64,000 nucleotides of DNA from a virus. This document shows, piece by piece, positions 3,719-52,989 of this stretch. Both the position numbers and the translations under genes were made by a program. Numbering within the stretch: the first letter of the stretch is position 1; every line of letters starts with the position of its first letter. The stretch spans positions 1 through 64,000 of the IMG/VR virus record IMGVR_UViG_3300028392_002058. One strand, given 5' to 3'. The notes under the pieces were generated by a model. It did not search any database and was not told where the DNA came from. It saw only the letters and a program-made list of their open reading frames with translations.

Positions 3719-4663
3719 TTAGGCTAGTTTGATTTTACCGATCAAACCTTGTGTAAAGATACTGTCGTACTTGACATGCAATGGAGCAGTCGCAGACTTG
3801 AACTCTGCTTGCTCTTCTGCTGTCAGGTGAACAACATTAATACCTTCTGAAACTGCACGAGCTTGTGTTTGTGCAATGTCAGCGATACTTTCTTGACGTT
3901 CGATACGAGCGGCGCTTAATGCGGCATCAGCAAAAATCTGCTGAGTTGCTGTATCAAATGTGTTCCATAGATCCTTGTTGATGATCAAGCTTGTCAAGAA
4001 CAAGCTGTGCTCACTGTGAACTAGGCTCTTGGCGTGTTGAGCTTGCTTCATACCATAAATGCGTGGGTATGTGCTTTCACCAGCATCGACTTCTTTAGAA
4101 GCCAAAGCGTCTGCTAATTGTTCGATGGCCATTTCAACTGGTTGTGCACCGATTGCTTCGAATGTATCTTTGGCAACTGGGCTAGCTGGAATACGCACAC
4201 GCATACCGCGTAGGTCTTCTAACTTTTCAACAGCTTCGGTAGCTGGGATGATACGGAAACCGCCTGAGTATGTGAAAGCTAAACCTTGAACTTTTGATTC
4301 TTCGGCTAACTTGGCAAATAACTGTTGACCAATAGCACCATCTAATACACGCTCTGCGTGATCGTGACCTTCGAAAAGGAATGGTAAGTCAAGTACAAAC
4401 ATGTCTTGGCTTAATTGACCCAATGTAGTAGTATACATCTGGCTCAATTGTACTTCACCGCTTTCTAGCATGTCGAGCAATTCGAAGCGGTTGTTAATTG
4501 TTTTACCTGCTTGGTATTTGTCAGCGTATTCTTGTAGACCAAGAATTTCGATTTCAAATGCGCCAGCAGTTTTTTCGTTAACTTCCTTTGAGAATTTCTC
4601 AGCGGCTCTTAAAAATAAATCATACGGTTCATGTGCTAGAACCCATGTTAATTTTGTTGTCAT
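3719..4663 (-). CDS. TRAP-transporter DctP-like substrate-binding protein lacking a signal peptide
   Basis: A 314-residue protein with the DctP fold: AEKFSKEVNEKTAG near residue 25, LPFLFEGHDHAERVL near 98, and LRGMRVRIPASPVAKD near 160 with the ligand-carboxylate Arg of the family. DctP proteins bind organic acids in the periplasm. This one starts MTTKLTWVLAHEPYD, directly at the mature fold, with no signal peptide, and no DctQ/DctM membrane partners are nearby, so it may stay in the cytosol or be packaged in the virion. Its ribosome site is held in a hairpin next to a late promoter, so late expression is predicted. Confidence 0.85.
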   Translation of the reverse strand: MTTKLTWVLAHEPYDLFLRAAEKFSKEVNEKTAGAFEIEILGLQEYADKYQAGKTINNRFELLDMLESGEVQLSQMYTTTLGQLSQDMFVLDLPFLFEGHDHAERVLDGAIGQQLFAKLAEESKVQGLAFTYSGGFRIIPATEAVEKLEDLRGMRVRIPASPVAKDTFEAIGAQPVEMAIEQLADALASKEVDAGESTYPRIYGMKQAQHAKSLVHSEHSLFLTSLIINKDLWNTFDTATQQIFADAALSAARIERQESIADIAQTQARAVSEGINVVHLTAEEQAEFKSATAPLHVKYDSIFTQGLIGKIKLA

Positions 4664-5223: not shown

Positions 5224-6138
5224 TTAATTTACCTTTACGCCCTCACTTAATTTTTTCCAATAATCAGTATGGAAATTAAAAAACTTAGGTAGATCATTGT
5301 AGTTCACGCTGGCTGGCTCACAGAAATCAACAGCATAGGCATTGCGAACACTTTCTGCTCGTGCGGCTTGAACAAAGATATCATAAAATTCTTTTGCTCG
5401 AGCATCATCATATCGTGCTGGAAGTACCAAATGATGTCCAACATTCATTGATGCAAACGACTGATCAAATCCTTCCTTAGTCAATGGCTGATAACCATTG
5501 ACCACTCGGTTTCCAGTGATGCCAAGCACATTCACAGTGACTTTGGCAGTTTTATTTTCTTTTGTCCATTGTTCAGCTTCACTGATGAATCCAATGTGAA
5601 AGTCTGTTTGTCCACTGACCATTGACAACATAGATTCTGTAGTTGACTTGAATGGAATAATATTCATCTTTGGATATTTCTTTTGTACTTGTAATGCCGC
5701 AAGATGCGTTGTGACACCAAGCCCACTGATTCCAATTGTCACTTCTTTGTCAACTGCTACTTCTCGCCAATTCTTGAATTTTGAACTGGTAATTGCCATA
5801 GGAGCGGTACAATGTACAAATTGTTCCTTAAATTGTGTTAGATCATAACTTTCATTGGGATACACATTTGGACGAATAAAAAATGCAGTACTGTGTGCAA
5901 GAATTGTATTGGCGTCTCTTAGCACTTGATTGCTTGCAATAGAGCCACCAGCACCAGGTTTGGCATCAAATATAAAGTTGTATTTGTTTTGGATTTTGTT
6001 TGCTTCGTTAGCAAGTGTACGATGATAATTTGCCACGCTGTCAGCAGGACCGTAAGCGTACATAATTGTAATGGTGTCTTTAGCCTGTGCGCCGATAGAG
6101 GCCATGGCTAAACACAAGATTGAAATGAATTTTTTCAT
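5224..6138 (-). CDS. TctC/Bug-family tripartite tricarboxylate-type binding protein
   Basis: A 304-residue periplasmic binding protein. The start at 6138 (MKKFISILCLAMASIGAQAKD) gives a clear cleavable signal peptide and has an AGGAG ribosome site. PGAGGSIASNQV (near residue 60) is the Bug/TctC loop that grips a carboxylate ligand. This family is greatly expanded in Burkholderiales, which points to the host. No TctA/TctB membrane parts are present, so it would have to work with host permeases or as a free binder. A TATAAGTA late-type box (6159-6166) lies upstream. Confidence 0.85.
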   Translation of the reverse strand: MKKFISILCLAMASIGAQAKDTITIMYAYGPADSVANYHRTLANEANKIQNKYNFIFDAKPGAGGSIASNQVLRDANTILAHSTAFFIRPNVYPNESYDLTQFKEQFVHCTAPMAITSSKFKNWREVAVDKEVTIGISGLGVTTHLAALQVQKKYPKMNIIPFKSTTESMLSMVSGQTDFHIGFISEAEQWTKENKTAKVTVNVLGITGNRVVNGYQPLTKEGFDQSFASMNVGHHLVLPARYDDARAKEFYDIFVQAARAESVRNAYAVDFCEPASVNYNDLPKFFNFHTDYWKKLSEGVKVN

Positions 6139-6158
6139 TAATTGTTCTCCTATGCCAA

Positions 6159-6166
6159 TACTTATA
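6159..6166 (-). promoter_or_regulatory. Late-type promoter box TATAAGTA
   Basis: TATAAGTA, a one-base variant of the T4 late box, 20 bp upstream of the TctC ATG with an AGGAG ribosome site between. The same variant precedes the nitroreductase start at 13764. Confidence 0.5.
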
Positions 6167-6180
6167 GCGTATACACTGAC

Positions 6181-6205
6181 AGATTGTCCAGAATCTGGAC
6201 AATCT
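6181..6205. repeat. Perfect 11-bp inverted repeat
   Basis: AGATTGTCCAG, AAT, CTGGACAATCT: a perfect hairpin between the radical SAM gene end (6215) and the TctC promoter. There is no U-run, so it is more like an operator or RNA-stabilising hairpin than a terminator. Confidence 0.7.
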
Positions 6206-6214
6206 GGACGAATG

Positions 6215-7078
6215 TTAAAACATTGTCTTAGAGATTCGTATTTTTTCACGATCGTTCTTGCTTCTACATTGACCCATGGTACAAGCAAAATGATTGCCGG
6301 GTGCTTGCCATGCTGTATCAAATGCATTAAAGTGTTCATTGCGGCCGCCACATTCGCTGTAAGATACAAATCCTTTGGGATTTATATGAATCCAATCAAC
6401 GCCTGCATAACATGGAAGTCCAGTATATACTGGATCCACTGAATTTATAATTCTCAAATCAGTGTAGCCAGGAACAGCGGCTTCTGTGGTTGCGTCATCA
6501 CTGCGCCTGAAAATTCTATTAAGGTCAACTTCACTGTACGACTTGATAAATCTTCCATCTGGCTCGTATAATATTTGTTCCTTACATTCAAGCCCTTGTT
6601 GTTGATAGTAATTTATTTTTTCTCTAGTTTCGTTAATGCGTCCTGGAAGCAAAGGAAACTCCATGGTCACTTTCTTTTGCTTGACCTTACATTCGTCTAG
6701 TATAAATCCAACCACATCATCGTTTTGCCATTCATGGTATGTCAAATGTACCCAGTTGACCAAATGCAATACCCTATACAATGCAAAGTAGGTGTCATCA
6801 CCACTGGTATCTAGTCTGATCCACGATGGCCAGGCCCGCATTGCCTGTAATACCTCAGTGAGATATGGAAAGTGCAACGGCTCTCCTCCACCAATTCTCC
6901 AAAGTATTTTGGGGTGGTGACAATAGCGTGTTCGTTGAAGTTTTTTAATAACCTCTAGATAATCGTTTAAGGGTCTGTCAGCTGTACCGTTTTTCCATTC
7001 TGGTCGGCAGTATGAACATTGAAGTTTGCAATGTGCGTTTAATAACCAATCAATTTGGGCATATTCTAATTTTATCAT
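6215..7078 (-). CDS. Radical SAM protein with C-terminal cysteine cluster
   Basis: A 287-residue enzyme. CKLQCSYC (about residues 18-25) is the CxxxCxxC [4Fe-4S]/SAM motif, GGGEPLHFP (near 65) is the GGE SAM-binding strand, and the C terminus carries a twitch/SPASM-like set (LPCYAGVDWIHINPKG, then SECGG and TMGQC). Such enzymes often modify peptides; the substrate is unknown. The same architecture recurs at 59509-60471. The start at 7078 (MIKLEYAQIDWLLN) lies 5 bp below a TTAAATA late box; there is no proper ribosome site, suggesting a leaderless late mRNA. Confidence 0.85.
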   Translation of the reverse strand: MIKLEYAQIDWLLNAHCKLQCSYCRPEWKNGTADRPLNDYLEVIKKLQRTRYCHHPKILWRIGGGEPLHFPYLTEVLQAMRAWPSWIRLDTSGDDTYFALYRVLHLVNWVHLTYHEWQNDDVVGFILDECKVKQKKVTMEFPLLPGRINETREKINYYQQQGLECKEQILYEPDGRFIKSYSEVDLNRIFRRSDDATTEAAVPGYTDLRIINSVDPVYTGLPCYAGVDWIHINPKGFVSYSECGGRNEHFNAFDTAWQAPGNHFACTMGQCRSKNDREKIRISKTMF

Positions 7079-8758: not shown

Positions 8759-8875
8759 TTACTTGTAAACTGCTTTAGCTTCAGCAGTCTTACCCTGACG
8801 AGCAAGACTTGCGGCGGCACGGGCCTGGCCAAATGCTTCTAAAAATGACCAGATTGAGTTGACGATTGTTTTCAT
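8759..8875 (-). CDS. Small conserved phage protein, 38 residues
   Basis: MKTIVNSIWSFLEAFGQARA then a basic Ala-rich tail; a short amphipathic helix. Its ATG overlaps the TGA of the preceding gene (ATGA), and the coding stretch ends just before the 8721-8754 element. Small proteins of this type are common in T4-like genomes. Confidence 0.65.
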   Translation of the reverse strand: MKTIVNSIWSFLEAFGQARAAASLARQGKTAEAKAVYK

Positions 8876-9033
8876 AGATATTTTTCCTTTTGATAGTTAA
8901 ACTGACGGATATAGTTTTCCAACTGTGCGGCATCGGTAATGCCTTTGTCTGCTAGATAAGCATCTAGGCGGCTTTGATAGTTAGAGCCAGGGAACATTTC
9001 TGCTAACCTTTCTAACATTCTTTCTAATAACAT
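8872..9033 (-). CDS. Small conserved phage protein, 53 residues
   Basis: Starts MLLERMLERLAEMFPG and continues with a helical segment ending NYQKEKYL. It has an AAGGA ribosome site 8 bases before the ATG and an ATGA overlap with the next gene, forming a two-gene unit with 8759-8875. Function unknown. Confidence 0.65.
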   Translation of the reverse strand: MLLERMLERLAEMFPGSNYQSRLDAYLADKGITDAAQLENYIRQFNYQKEKYL

Positions 9034-9104: not shown

Positions 9105-9332
9105 TTACTCGGCTGATTTTTTGCTTTTAGCAACGGTGTCAAAGCCAGGAACTTTGAATGCTTCCAAGTTCTTGTAAGCTTCTACAGCCTGTGTTTTGAA
9201 TGTTTCAGCCAATTGCGTATTGACATCTAGTAATGTCTTTGCAAATGCTGTTGACGCACCTGTTAGTTGTGCGGCCAATTCTTTGGCCAATTTTTGGTTT
9301 GATTCAAAAGTTTTTGTGATTTCAGTGAACAT
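9105..9332 (-). CDS. Phasin-like polyhydroxyalkanoate granule protein
   Basis: A 75-residue protein, MFTEITKTFESNQKLAKEL, with the Phasin_2-type amphipathic helix containing FAKTLLDVNTQLAETFKTQ and a Lys-rich tail. Full bacterial phasins are about 110-190 residues, so this is a short form holding the core helix. Phasins coat PHA granules and control their number and breakdown. The start is set by AAAGGAG 7 bases upstream. The promoter carries a palindrome matching the PhbF/PhaR operator type, so the gene may respond to host PHA regulation. It is flanked by its own terminator. Unusual cargo for a phage. Confidence 0.7.
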   Translation of the reverse strand: MFTEITKTFESNQKLAKELAAQLTGASTAFAKTLLDVNTQLAETFKTQAVEAYKNLEAFKVPGFDTVAKSKKSAE

Positions 9333-9396
9333 GCTTATATCTCCTTTGTTTAAGCGAGTAGTACAGTAGCCTCTAATGAGCACTACTACTAAGTAG

Positions 9397-9450
9397 AAAC
9401 GCTATTAGCGTTTTCACTAGTATAACACTATATATGTTGCACCGCAACAT
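9397..9450 (-). promoter_or_regulatory. Phasin promoter with two operator-like palindromes
   Basis: TTGCGG (9442-9447), 17 bp, TATACT (9419-9424). The -35 box lies inside a perfect palindrome ATGTTGC-GGT-GCAACAT (9434-9450), which fits TG[N]TGC[N]3GCAA, the motif I recall for the Herbaspirillum PHB regulator PhbF. A second palindrome AAACGCTA-T-TAGCGTTT (9397-9413) lies just below the -10 box. Confidence 0.7.
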
Positions 9451-12879: not shown

Positions 12880-13764
12880 TTATTCAAAAGTAAAACCCAT
12901 TTGTTTAAGGCTATCACCAATCCAGGCTTTGGCCATGCTTGGTTTTAATCGTTCAGCTACCCTGCTGACAAAGCCGCCTGATACAGTTGATTGTGGCATA
13001 CCTTTTTGCATTTCGGCATGTATTCTATTGTATTCATCAAATTGTGAGTTATCTGTTATTGGAGTATATTTAGAATGATGTAATACCAAGTCTTGTCCCA
13101 TCCTCCAGCGCACTCCATTTTTACCTTGAGTAATTGCCTCTGCTGAAATTCCATGTACTGTTGCAAAAAGCGGAAAGGTGTGTGGTGGAAGATTAAAGTA
13201 AGTCTTTAAAAAATCAATGGGCAATTGTCGAACAGCACCAATGTATGTTCCGGATATGCCCATGGATTCAGCCGCCCCAAAAAATGTTTGGGCCGCAATA
13301 GTTGCATCAACTATTGCTTTGAGATGGTACTCAGCAGTATTGGTTGCGTTTTTGATTTCTTCGTCTATGTTGTTATTCTGTAGAATAAAATCTAATTTAC
13401 TCAAATCTGCTAACCAGATTAAAAATATTTTTGAAGTGCCTATTGCAGTATAATTGGCAGTATCTACACCACCTAAAATGCCGGCATGACCTGGGGTCTC
13501 CCATAGCGCATTGATAAAGTTTTCTTTAGCTTTTTGATCCAATGAAATAACACTCCATGTCTGCAACATACCACTAGTAGGGGCGCTCTGAGCGGCCGCT
13601 ACCAGTAATTCAAGTGTGCCATTGGGCAGTTCTCTATTAGAGAACCTTCTAACAGAACGCCTAGTCAACAGTTTTGTTATATGTGCAGTTGGTTGCTGTT
13701 CAGGTAATGGAATATCGTCTCGTCCATACCTGGCATGAAACGGATTAACTTTTTCAAACGTCAT
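12880..13764 (-). CDS. Nitroreductase-family flavoprotein, copy 2
   Basis: A 294-residue FMN-type nitroreductase. RRSVRRFSNREL (near residue 34) is the FMN-binding N terminus, then AAAQSAPTSGMLQTWSVI and the late GISGTYIGAVR segment. It is a paralog of 13797-14663, sharing NPFHARYGRDDIPLPEQQ and two long identical DNA blocks. The start at 13764 (MTFEKVNPFHARYG) matches the paralog and lies 5 bp below TATAAGTA; 13788 would add 8 residues. The family reduces quinones, nitro compounds or flavins with NAD(P)H. Possible redox or prodrug role; substrate unknown. Confidence 0.8.
   Translation of the reverse strand: MTFEKVNPFHARYGRDDIPLPEQQPTAHITKLLTRRSVRRFSNRELPNGTLELLVAAAQSAPTSGMLQTWSVISLDQKAKENFINALWETPGHAGILGGVDTANYTAIGTSKIFLIWLADLSKLDFILQNNNIDEEIKNATNTAEYHLKAIVDATIAAQTFFGAAESMGISGTYIGAVRQLPIDFLKTYFNLPPHTFPLFATVHGISAEAITQGKNGVRWRMGQDLVLHHSKYTPITDNSQFDEYNRIHAEMQKGMPQSTVSGGFVSRVAERLKPSMAKAWIGDSLKQMGFTFE
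13544..13628. repeat. 85-bp block identical to 14449-14533
   Basis: Identical over 85 bp to 14449-14533 in the neighbouring nitroreductase gene; a second 58-bp identical pair is 13689-13746 and 14594-14651. The rest of the two genes differs clearly, which suggests recent gene conversion after an older duplication. Confidence 0.9.
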
Positions 13765-13769
13765 ACATT

Positions 13770-13777
13770 TACTTATA
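13770..13777 (-). promoter_or_regulatory. Late-type promoter box TATAAGTA
   Basis: TATAAGTA with 5 bp to the ATG at 13764, predicting a leaderless transcript. Confidence 0.5.
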
Positions 13778-13796
13778 GGTACATACATTGGATTTG

Positions 13797-14663
13797 CTAT
13801 TCAAATCCAAAACCCATTTGTTTTAAAAATTCTCCAGTTTGTTGTTTTGATTCACTTGGATCTAATCTTTCAACTACCCGACTTTCAAATGTTGAAACTC
13901 CTCGACGACTAATCTGTTGATGTACCGTATTATAATCTGTTAATTCTTTTAGTGAACTCATGGGTTTATAAGTTGAATGATGTAGTATAAAATCTTGAGA
14001 CAGTCTGGGACGGGGCTTCGCAACTGGCTCTGTTGGCAAACGGCTTAATATTTGCATTGATGGATACCCTATAGCCATTCCAAACAAAGGAAATGTGTAC
14101 TTTGGAAGATTAAAAGTATCTTGTAAAAAAGTTGTTGGTAGCTGTCTAATTGCACCCATGTATGTTCCACCCAAGCCCATGGATTCTGCTGTTATGAAAA
14201 GAGTCTGCGCCGCAATCGACGCATCAACAACTGCTTTGAGATTAAACTCTGCTTTATTTACTTGTAGTTTAGTTTCAGGTGGCGCATTGGTATTTTGTAA
14301 AATAAAATTTGTTCTATTTAAATCTGCTAACCAAATTAGAAAAATTGAGCAAGTTTCAATGGCTGTAAAATTGGCAGTATCTACACCACCAATGATATAA
14401 CGGCACTCAGGTGATGACAGTAAGGTTTTTCGGTCTTCTGCATTTAAAGAAATAACACTCCATGTCTGCAACATACCACTAGTAGGGGCGCTCTGAGCGG
14501 CCGCTACCAGTAATTCAAGTGTGCCATTGGGCAATGCAGTGGGGAAAAAATTCCTACATGATGTTCTTGCTAACAGAGTTTTTGTGAAAGAATTTGGTTG
14601 CTGTTCAGGTAATGGAATATCGTCTCGTCCATACCTGGCATGAAACGGATTGGTAAATGTCAT
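13797..14663 (-). CDS. Nitroreductase-family flavoprotein, copy 1
   Basis: A 288-residue paralog of the downstream gene, with RTSCRNFFPTALPNG (FMN phosphate region), AAAQSAPTSGMLQTWSVI and GLGGTYMGAIRQLP. The start codon is part of a perfect 24-bp palindrome that also contains the late box TATAAATA, with 5 bp from box to ATG. Two tandem phage nitroreductases are unusual; they may differ in substrate, since the regions outside the identical blocks have diverged. Confidence 0.8.
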   Translation of the reverse strand: MTFTNPFHARYGRDDIPLPEQQPNSFTKTLLARTSCRNFFPTALPNGTLELLVAAAQSAPTSGMLQTWSVISLNAEDRKTLLSSPECRYIIGGVDTANFTAIETCSIFLIWLADLNRTNFILQNTNAPPETKLQVNKAEFNLKAVVDASIAAQTLFITAESMGLGGTYMGAIRQLPTTFLQDTFNLPKYTFPLFGMAIGYPSMQILSRLPTEPVAKPRPRLSQDFILHHSTYKPMSSLKELTDYNTVHQQISRRGVSTFESRVVERLDPSESKQQTGEFLKQMGFGFE

Positions 14664-32966: not shown

Positions 32967-33782
32967 TTACCACCAGATAGCGTAGTCTTTGTACTTTTCT
33001 ACACTACGGGCCAGTAGCTCTGCGTATTCTTTTGGACGAACTCGGCAAATAACAAATCCAGTTACCCTACTATCAATGGATCCTTCTGGAACTGCTTCAA
33101 CACCGTGTGCGGCATGGGTAGTTGTTAAGTGGAATGGAAAGCAAGGTTGTGGATATTTTGCATAGATTTTTTCATCTTCTACAAAGTCTGACCATGGCAA
33201 CTGCTTGACAGATCCGTCCTTGTTCCTGGTCAAGTTAAGCAGGCGTTTTGCTGATGGATTCTTTGCTTTCTGAAAGAAGATTTTAGCATTGCTACGATTG
33301 ACTGCGTAGAATCGCAAACCAAACCATACATCTGGATCGGTGTGTATGCCAACATCTGTTCCTGCTTTTTGATTCAGCAAGCTCATTGTGTAAAATTCAC
33401 TAACAGGTAAACTTTCAAAGTAGGCGGCCAATTCTGGCAACCATTCTTTGAACTCTGGGTAGTATTCCCATCCATCATTGGCAAAGTCACTACGCATCAA
33501 ATGCAACAGGCGCCATGGGTAGGTGTCTTTTTCTTTACTCCAACTTGCTGTATATCTTAGCCAAGGGTGATCTAAAGGAATAGGACCGGTTGCTCCAGAC
33601 ACAGATCCAGCCAGTGTGCCCCGATCTCTTTCGTCACGCATGGCAATATACGCAAACAGGCGTGCCTCATCAATTTCTGGAGGTGGTGGCAAGTCTAGCG
33701 GACAAAAGATCAAGCCCTTGTAGGGTTCAAGTTCTGCTGGAAACTCTTGCAGTAGCGATGGGTCTCTAAACTGTTGTGCCAT
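32967..33782 (-). CDS. Putative 2OG-Fe(II) oxygenase
   Basis: A 271-residue protein. GIHTDPDVWFGLRFYAVNRS (near residue 145) carries the H-x-D iron motif, THAAHGVE (near 220) the distal His, and SRVTGFVICR the 2OG Arg strand, like aspartyl/asparaginyl or prolyl hydroxylases. The N-terminal part is Pro-rich with no known domain. The start overlaps the HAD gene. Substrate unknown; protein hydroxylation is possible. Confidence 0.65.
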   Translation of the reverse strand: MAQQFRDPSLLQEFPAELEPYKGLIFCPLDLPPPPEIDEARLFAYIAMRDERDRGTLAGSVSGATGPIPLDHPWLRYTASWSKEKDTYPWRLLHLMRSDFANDGWEYYPEFKEWLPELAAYFESLPVSEFYTMSLLNQKAGTDVGIHTDPDVWFGLRFYAVNRSNAKIFFQKAKNPSAKRLLNLTRNKDGSVKQLPWSDFVEDEKIYAKYPQPCFPFHLTTTHAAHGVEAVPEGSIDSRVTGFVICRVRPKEYAELLARSVEKYKDYAIWW

Positions 33783-42104: not shown

Positions 42105-42695
42105 ATGATAATTTATATTCACGGTGCCAGTGCCACCGGTGAAAGTTTCACTCACATTAGAGAGCATGTTGGAGGTCCTGACCGAGTTTTGGAATATTCA
42201 AGTGCCAACGGATTTTCTAACAACCTGGAAATGATGATGGAAGAACTTGAGACTGTGGACCGGTTATTTTTTGTGGCTCATAGCCTGGGTGGCATCTATG
42301 CCTTACATCTGGCCAACCATTATCGAAATCGAGTGCAGGGTGGAGTAACTCTTAGCACTCCATATGGTGGTTGCATACAGGCCGACTATGCCAAATACTT
42401 CTTGCCATTCAGCAGACTAATGCGTGATGTTGGTACAATGAGCAAGCCCATGACTGATGCGGCTAAAATACCAGCACCGCGGAACTGGACCAACATTGTT
42501 ACCACAGTGGGTGACAGTCCTTGGATTCACGAACCAAACGATGGTGTGGTTACAATTGAAAGTATGCGTTCAAAAACAGATATGGAACTGATTGAAATTG
42601 ACCTAAACCATTACGAAGTTGTTATTAGCAATCGTGTAGTTGACATTATTAAAGAACGAACTAGACAATTATCGCCTTTTCCTTCGCGTATTTAA
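42105..42695 (+). CDS. Alpha/beta hydrolase (lipase/esterase-like)
   Basis: A 196-residue hydrolase starting MIIYIHGASATGES (oxyanion HG). AHSLGGIYAL (near residue 60) holds the nucleophile Ser, PNDGVVT (near 145) the acid Asp and LNHYEVV the catalytic His. A single plus-strand gene divergent from dCMP deaminase. Ribosome site AGGA. The substrate is unknown; a role in lipid breakdown at lysis or in host metabolism is possible. Confidence 0.85.
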   Translation: MIIYIHGASATGESFTHIREHVGGPDRVLEYSSANGFSNNLEMMMEELETVDRLFFVAHSLGGIYALHLANHYRNRVQGGVTLSTPYGGCIQADYAKYFLPFSRLMRDVGTMSKPMTDAAKIPAPRNWTNIVTTVGDSPWIHEPNDGVVTIESMRSKTDMELIEIDLNHYEVVISNRVVDIIKERTRQLSPFPSRI

Positions 42696-48367: not shown

Positions 48368-49228
48368 CTAAATTAGCCCAAAAATTTGACGAGTTTCTGC
48401 GGGTGTAGCAATTGCGCCGCCCAAAAGTTCAATAATTTTGACGGCTTTTTCTACCAGTTCGCAATTGGTTTTTGCCAGCACACCTCGTTCTAAATAGATG
48501 TTATCTTCGAGCCCTACACGAGCATGACCACCAGCAATTGTACTGAGTGCAACAAACGGCATTTGCTGGGCACCAATACCAAAGGCATACCATGTTGCAT
48601 CTCGGGGCAACAGATTACGAGCATAATTTAATGTTTCAGATGTGGCACTCCATCCCCATCTGACACCTGCGGCAATTTGCCAAATTGCTGGCTCAGTAAT
48701 TAGACCTTCTCGAATTAATTGTTGAGCAATATGAAAGTCACCAGAATCAAATAATTCAATTTCGGGTTTGACACCTGCTTCTCGAATCAAACGGGCCATG
48801 GTGCGGGCAGTGGTCAAGGTATTGATTGTGATATTTTCTGCGCCACGATTCATTGTGTTTAAATCTAAACTACAGATATCAGGCCTTAGAGCCAAGATAT
48901 GTTCTACACGAGCTTCGGCGCTGGCAAATGCTGGACTGCTCCCTACACGATCTGCAGGACCAGTAGCGCCTGCACCGGTGGTTAAATTAATAATCAATTG
49001 GTCATTGATATCTTTGATTCGTGCAACCACTTCATCATACAATTTTAGATCCATACTTGGGCGGCCCGACTCTGGGTCGCGCACATGTATATGAACTACG
49101 CTGGCACCAGCTTCTGCGGCTTCTAGTGCCGAATCAGCAATCTGTTTTGGAGTAACAGGTAGATAAGGTGTCTGTTCAGGTGTAGTCTGACCACCGGTAA
49201 TGGCACAGGTGATAACTGTCTTTTTCAT
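48368..49228 (-). CDS. Beta-keto acid cleavage enzyme (BKACE, DUF849 family)
   Basis: A 286-residue TIM-barrel enzyme. VVHIHVRDPESGRPS (near residue 44) holds the zinc-binding HxH, ITGGQTTPEQTPYLPVT the N-terminal signature, and GGHARVGLEDNIYL (near 225) a second conserved loop. The family splits beta-keto acids (for example 3-keto-5-aminohexanoate) with acetyl-CoA to give acetoacetate and a CoA ester. This links to CoA and PHB chemistry of the host. Length is near the family norm. A rare phage gene. It abuts the stop of the upstream small gene. Confidence 0.88.
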   Translation of the reverse strand: MKKTVITCAITGGQTTPEQTPYLPVTPKQIADSALEAAEAGASVVHIHVRDPESGRPSMDLKLYDEVVARIKDINDQLIINLTTGAGATGPADRVGSSPAFASAEARVEHILALRPDICSLDLNTMNRGAENITINTLTTARTMARLIREAGVKPEIELFDSGDFHIAQQLIREGLITEPAIWQIAAGVRWGWSATSETLNYARNLLPRDATWYAFGIGAQQMPFVALSTIAGGHARVGLEDNIYLERGVLAKTNCELVEKAVKIIELLGGAIATPAETRQIFGLI

Positions 49229-52943: not shown

Positions 52944-52989
52944 ATTTTACGCTATACTAGTACAAATGTCAATCTTGTTACTATAAATA
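52944..52989. promoter_or_regulatory. Divergent promoter pair: sigma70 (-) and late (+)
   Basis: Minus: TTGACA (52967-52972), 17 bp, TAAAAT (52944-52949), 6 bp to the ATG at 52937. Plus: TATAAATA (52982-52989), 4 bp to the ATG at 52994. Both promoters predict leaderless mRNAs within a 56-bp gap. Confidence 0.75.

Follow-up and report, generated by a model that had tools for sequence, protein, structure and literature searches.

Polyhydroxybutyrate (PHB) is one of the main carbon and energy reserves in many bacteria, and bacteria control the genes for their PHB-granule coat proteins through a short palindromic box. What appears to be this same box stands in the promoter of a small gene in a 64-kb stretch of viral DNA (the window, part of a 96.6-kb virus record). 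Does this phage gene answer to the PHB sensor of its host, and is its product a phasin? A first-pass annotation had proposed both, along with a betaproteobacterial host. The evidence proves uneven between the two halves of the proposal, being strong for the operator and indirect for the protein.

Gene, Promoter, and Terminator

The features of the locus are as follows.

9434 to 9450, minus strand: PhaR/PhbF-type operator (very probable), ATGTTGC-GGT-GCAACAT, unique in the window and supported by matrix score and a conserved core
9442 to 9447, minus strand: −35 hexamer TTGCGG, inside the operator, read from the sequence, with the same layout in one host-like genus
9419 to 9424, minus strand: −10 hexamer TATACT, 17 nt past the −35, kept in relatives except L140
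9397 to 9413, minus strand: leader hairpin 1, which is the second palindrome AAACGCT-AAT-AGCGTTT, with compensatory G-C/A-U changes
9363 to 9386 (limits approximate), minus strand: leader hairpin 2, AGUAGUGCUCAUUAGAGGCUACU, with three pairs changed on both sides
9105 to 9332, minus strand: gene for a phasin-like amphipathic helical protein, 75 codons with stop, supported by homologues, dN/dS, and one predicted helix
9056 to 9082, minus strand: terminator-like hairpin, then TTTT, with an 11-pair stem containing seven G-C pairs

The open reading frame begins with an ATG at 9332, preceded by AAAGGAG, and ends at 9105 with a 75-aa product. Comparison of its first 62 codons with those of relatives gives a dN/dS of 0.04–0.09, so this is a real, constrained gene, and strong purifying selection acts on it. 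Along the minus strand, the palindrome over the −35 is followed by a 17-nt spacer, the −10, a leader of about 80 nt, the reading frame, and the terminator-like hairpin with its T run. The −35 hexamer agrees with TTGACA at only three of six bases, and because of this weakness a stock promoter scan missed the promoter; the sigma-70-like assignment is made from geometry and conservation. Among the relatives that were folded, a similar hairpin follows the gene in L002, L003, L008, and L009 and was not seen in the rest. The first-pass claim that the gene has its own promoter and terminator thus holds up, given the geometry of box, −35, and −10, its conservation, and the hairpin with TTTT, and the −35 (9447–9442) does lie within the palindrome (9450–9434) as described. 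The label "phasin-like" is weaker than was claimed, with no library match for the window protein and sub-threshold matches only in relatives. As a separate observation, other phage genes also have TATACTAGT in the place of a −10, downstream of −35-like hexamers (in the window at 52952, plus strand, and 49549, minus strand; also G663 at 33543, minus strand), so it could be the usual promoter type of this phage.

The Candidate PhaR/PhbF Operator

The reported recognition motif of Herbaspirillum PhbF is TG[N]TGC[N]3GCAA (PMC3206438), as the first-pass annotation had stated. The palindrome reported for PhaR of R. eutropha is YTKNTGCRNYGCANMAR (PMC12849132), and the phage box agrees with it at 15 of 17 positions, the mismatches being solely at the outermost base of each side. 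A TGC-N3-GCA palindrome at the promoter, the mark of the PhaR/PhbF regulon, is present. The exact form ATGTTGCN3GCAACAT occurs once in the 64 kb and in none of 100 shuffles. With two mismatches allowed, matches to the published PhaR consensus are no rarity in the 64 kb (8 sites found versus 14 expected), so the weight of the argument rests on a position matrix and on conservation.

The matrix was made from bacterial phasin-promoter sites alone, with no phage sites. The sample consisted of 24 unique Burkholderiales phasin genes for which a script found a clear start, genes without a found start being excluded. Every one of the 24 has a TGC-N3-GCA within 220 bp upstream, versus 1.1 expected, and in leave-one-out scoring the upstream site beat the rest of its locus in 24 of 24 cases (median 22.0 versus 7.0 bits). 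The phage site scores 24.1 bits against the bacterial median of 22.0, and the runner-up in the 96.6-kb record reaches 13.2; in ten random genomes, the best scores ranged from 13.4 to 21.1, with one genome reaching the upper value. A 285-kb relative again has its top site at the same gene, at 24.1 versus 17.0 bits for the next. The TGC-RNY-GCA core is kept in 17 of 17 distinct phage leaders, in eight versions, even where identity to the window protein is down to 38–46%. The motif scan thus ranks the phage box first in its record and the core persists among relatives, which gives strong support to the proposed operator type; by these sequence criteria the box at 9434–9450 is very probably a PhaR/PhbF operator. 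In the bacterial loci (L103–L185), PhaR boxes before Burkholderiales phasin genes are frequently paired, 56–61 bp apart, and their central triplet is mostly R-N-Y; among the 24 sampled genes, the spacing of such pairs is often 58–61 bp.

Two Hairpins in the Leader

The second palindrome, which had been noted below the −10, is indeed present at 9413–9397. An RNA hairpin is a likelier role for it than a second operator, since compensatory changes and the presence of a second hairpin downstream favor RNA, on moderate evidence. Both-side changes occur at 5 of the 23 leader pairs, with nine compensatory cells versus 3.0 in shuffles, and 95.6% of cells are paired in the hairpins versus at most 52.5% when the structure is slid. 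The fold of the single sequence improves on shuffles only modestly (z −1.58). Both hairpins come after the predicted start. GUGCUC and GAGGC of hairpin 2 are invariant, and an Rfam search with the leader returned chance matches only, below the gathering score. Relative L030 carries the hairpin 1 palindrome in flipped form and the outer pairs may precede the transcript start, so a DNA role for hairpin 1, as an operator, is possible. The conserved two-hairpin leader probably stabilizes the mRNA or tunes its translation.

Is the Protein a Phasin?

Searches of the window protein against Pfam, NCBIfam, PHROGs, and PADLOC gave nothing above cut-off, and the profile check against Phasin_2 proposed by the first-pass annotation found no match. 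Among relatives, Phasin_2 (PF09361) reached 16.4 bits against a cut-off of 24.9 (E = 0.011, once), and TIGR01841 reached at most 15.5 bits against a cut-off of 30.2 among the members listed. Three of the listed relatives match TIGR01841 at E values of 0.018–0.07 in one common register (model positions 35/38 to 86/87), a span that covers only the second half of the model. In one search, 6 of 13 relatives gave sub-threshold phasin profile matches. All of these scores lie below the curated cut-offs for Phasin_2 and TIGR01841, and by these cut-offs the 75-aa protein is not a member of either family. Alignment of profiles with hhalign against bacterial phasins was insignificant (probabilities of 1.4% and 0.4%), and when an HMM of the protein family was run on bacterial phasin loci, the top matches were two short phasins at E values of 0.05 and 0.58. 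A pattern scan and an HMM search over 300 Burkholderiales genomes and 186 genomes of the likely host genus found no bacterial homologue; the best HMM matches among those examined were to proteins without a relation to this one, FlgD and chemotaxis receptors among them, and the likely host genus gave six weak matches. A PDB profile search with the 75-aa protein found nothing convincing.

The structural evidence is more suggestive. AlphaFold, run on a single chain, predicts one helix over residues 2–58 with a mean pLDDT of 81, and the hydrophobic moment peaks at 98–100 degrees (z 2.6–4.7, 17 members), as expected of an amphipathic helix. From the single helix and the moment peak, a surface-binding amphipathic helix is plausible for this product. 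As predicted, the product resembles phasins in being a small amphipathic helical protein, although the feature is not specific to them. Phasins have been called phylogenetically heterogeneous (PMC5658603), so missing homology leaves a phasin function possible. Together, the operator, the amphipathic helix, and the weak matches that share a register suggest a phasin, an identity that the profile searches did not establish. No other clear PHB gene was recognized near the gene. Farther away, 42105–42695 (plus strand) encodes a small alpha/beta-hydrolase-like protein for which an intracellular PHA depolymerase model is among the weak matches (E = 0.081), no better than other hydrolases.

The protein could instead be a PhaR-controlled phage regulator or anti-phasin, one that would leave the granule surface itself alone and, by binding a putative partner (PhaR, PhaP, or the machinery of polymerase and depolymerase), would block or speed PHB turnover. 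Such a protein would draw on the same matrix score and conserved core, an amphipathic helix is fit for pairing with helical phasins, and the restriction of the weak matches to the second half of TIGR01841 would agree with it. The structure prediction, however, is of a single chain only, and we consider this reading unlikely, though the best placed of the alternatives. A granule-surface protein remains our preferred assignment.

Virus Lineage and Conservation

A further 28 freshwater virus contigs, of up to 285 kb, contain homologues of the 75-aa gene, and the gene is single-copy in each of 15 records searched; none was found in cultured phages or plasmids. The clamp loader is nearest to those of PA5oct-like Pseudomonas jumbo phages, at 55% identity, so the window is probably from an uncultured jumbo-phage lineage related to the PA5oct-like phages. 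The neighborhood is largely syntenic among relatives, with UvdE, the phasin-like gene, and then genes for 196-aa and 112-aa proteins. Two tiny genes that follow the phasin-like gene in the window are both variable among relatives: 8872–9033 (minus strand), which is DUF3563-like (E = 0.00057, below cut-off), and 8759–8875 (minus strand), of 38 aa.

Across the relatives, the promoter and leader are almost invariant while the protein diverges. That the box and leader are better conserved than the protein would suit a role in which the operator outweighs the protein, with many phage genome copies titrating PhaR and derepressing host phasin and PHB genes while the reading frame is secondary. The low dN/dS and the one copy in each record instead show that the protein is selected, and one might expect a decoy to be repeated, whereas the 96.6 kb hold one strong site; we regard titration as improbable. 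Equally improbable is a gene unrelated to PHB whose box, with its TGC-N3-GCA palindrome, serves another regulator of phage or host. Loose consensus sites in the window are not rare, but the flanks and R-N-Y spacer also match, the matrix score is on a par with those at bacterial phasin genes and stands 11 bits over the next phage site (one of the ten random genomes reaching 21.1), and the promoter layout agrees with that of host-type phasin promoters.

The Likely Host

The operator type supports the earlier suggestion of a betaproteobacterial (Burkholderiales) host. From promoter layout and base composition, we infer that the host is most like a small-genome, Polynucleobacter-like Burkholderiales genus (that of G468). 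The 186 genomes searched in this genus are mostly about 2 Mb, with a GC content of 0.42–0.46 in measured loci; that of the phage is 0.42. In many of them the phasin promoter is laid out as in the phage, a lone box covering the −35 and a good −10 following after about 17 bp; elsewhere in the genus the box is closer to the start codon, and in five cases none was seen. The phasins of this genus, of about 180–200 aa, are clear Phasin_2/TIGR01841 members, unlike the phage protein, and the two-hairpin leader of the phage was not seen in the promoters examined there.

Attempts to assign a host through other genes failed, as the nearest relatives of the beta-keto acid cleavage enzyme (BKACE), the DctP-like protein, the DUF3563-like protein, and the 38-aa protein were distant or not found. 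The BKACE gene at 48368–49228 (minus strand) is complete (E = 6e-95); its nearest relatives among the genomes found share about 50% identity with it, and two of those loci lie in contigs of freshwater MAGs, which may be misbinned. The phage also carries solute-binding proteins of the TRAP type (DctP, 3719–4663, minus strand) and a TctC-like type (5224–6369, minus strand), the former only 23–30% identical to the Burkholderiaceae-type homologues found. Adjacent nitroreductase-family genes at 12880–13788 and 13797–14663 (both minus strand), about 54% identical to each other, have the look of a tandem duplication.

Proposed Mechanism and Known Systems

PhaR quits its operator and binds PHB once granules form (PMC3079617). 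Activation by PhaR is known too, at phaP3 (PMC12849132), but the position of the box over the −35 favors repression here. In a cell without PHB, host PhaR would repress the phage gene; once granules are present, PhaR would shift onto them and the phage promoter would open, by analogy with host phaP. The phage protein might then coat or remodel PHB granules, and the gain could be stored carbon and reducing power freed for phage growth, or granules kept from disturbing phage assembly. Our best explanation, which we hold to be probable, is that PhaR, the PHB sensor of the host itself, governs a phasin-like protein that the phage supplies and that acts at the granule surface; support is good for the operator, and granule binding is what we infer. 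The fuller proposal, put forward tentatively and at slightly less than even chances, is that a jumbo-phage lineage reads stored carbon via the granule-sensing repressor PhaR and responds by expressing a minimal phasin, one helix long and from a new sequence family, to remodel the PHB granules of the infected cell.

The PhaR/PhbF-repressed phaP1 genes of Cupriavidus necator (R. eutropha) and Herbaspirillum seropedicae likewise have a TGC-RNY-GCA in a sigma-70 promoter before a gene for a small amphipathic protein (PMC3206438, PMC12849132). C. necator phaP1 differs in having at least two boxes, of which one is placed around the start site, where in the phage a lone box covers the −35. The phage protein, at 75 aa, is also not significantly similar in sequence to phasins, which have about 110–190 aa. 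The closest analogue is found in cyanophages, whose pho-box genes respond to phosphate through PhoB; the corresponding signal in this phage would be stored PHB, read by PhaR. In both cases a phage gene would sit under a host nutrient-status regulator, as do pstS and other stress genes of cyanophages that are controlled by the pho box of the host (PMC10976474). Borg extrachromosomal elements also carry PHA metabolism on a nonchromosomal element (PMC11208441), but these are archaeal and hold a PHA pathway, whereas the phage has one PhaR-controlled small gene. In the open-access literature, we came across neither a phage phasin nor a phage with a PhaR operator, and little on phage dealings with PHB.

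That the phage may sense or rewire host PHB, as first suggested for this locus, is reasonable to suppose. At about 75 residues, the protein may represent a new family of minimal phasins, and the operator could help to assign hosts to uncultured jumbo phages. If the proposal is true, the gene would provide a direct, testable link between the storage state of the cell and the infection program, a counterpart for carbon of the cyanophage pho box.
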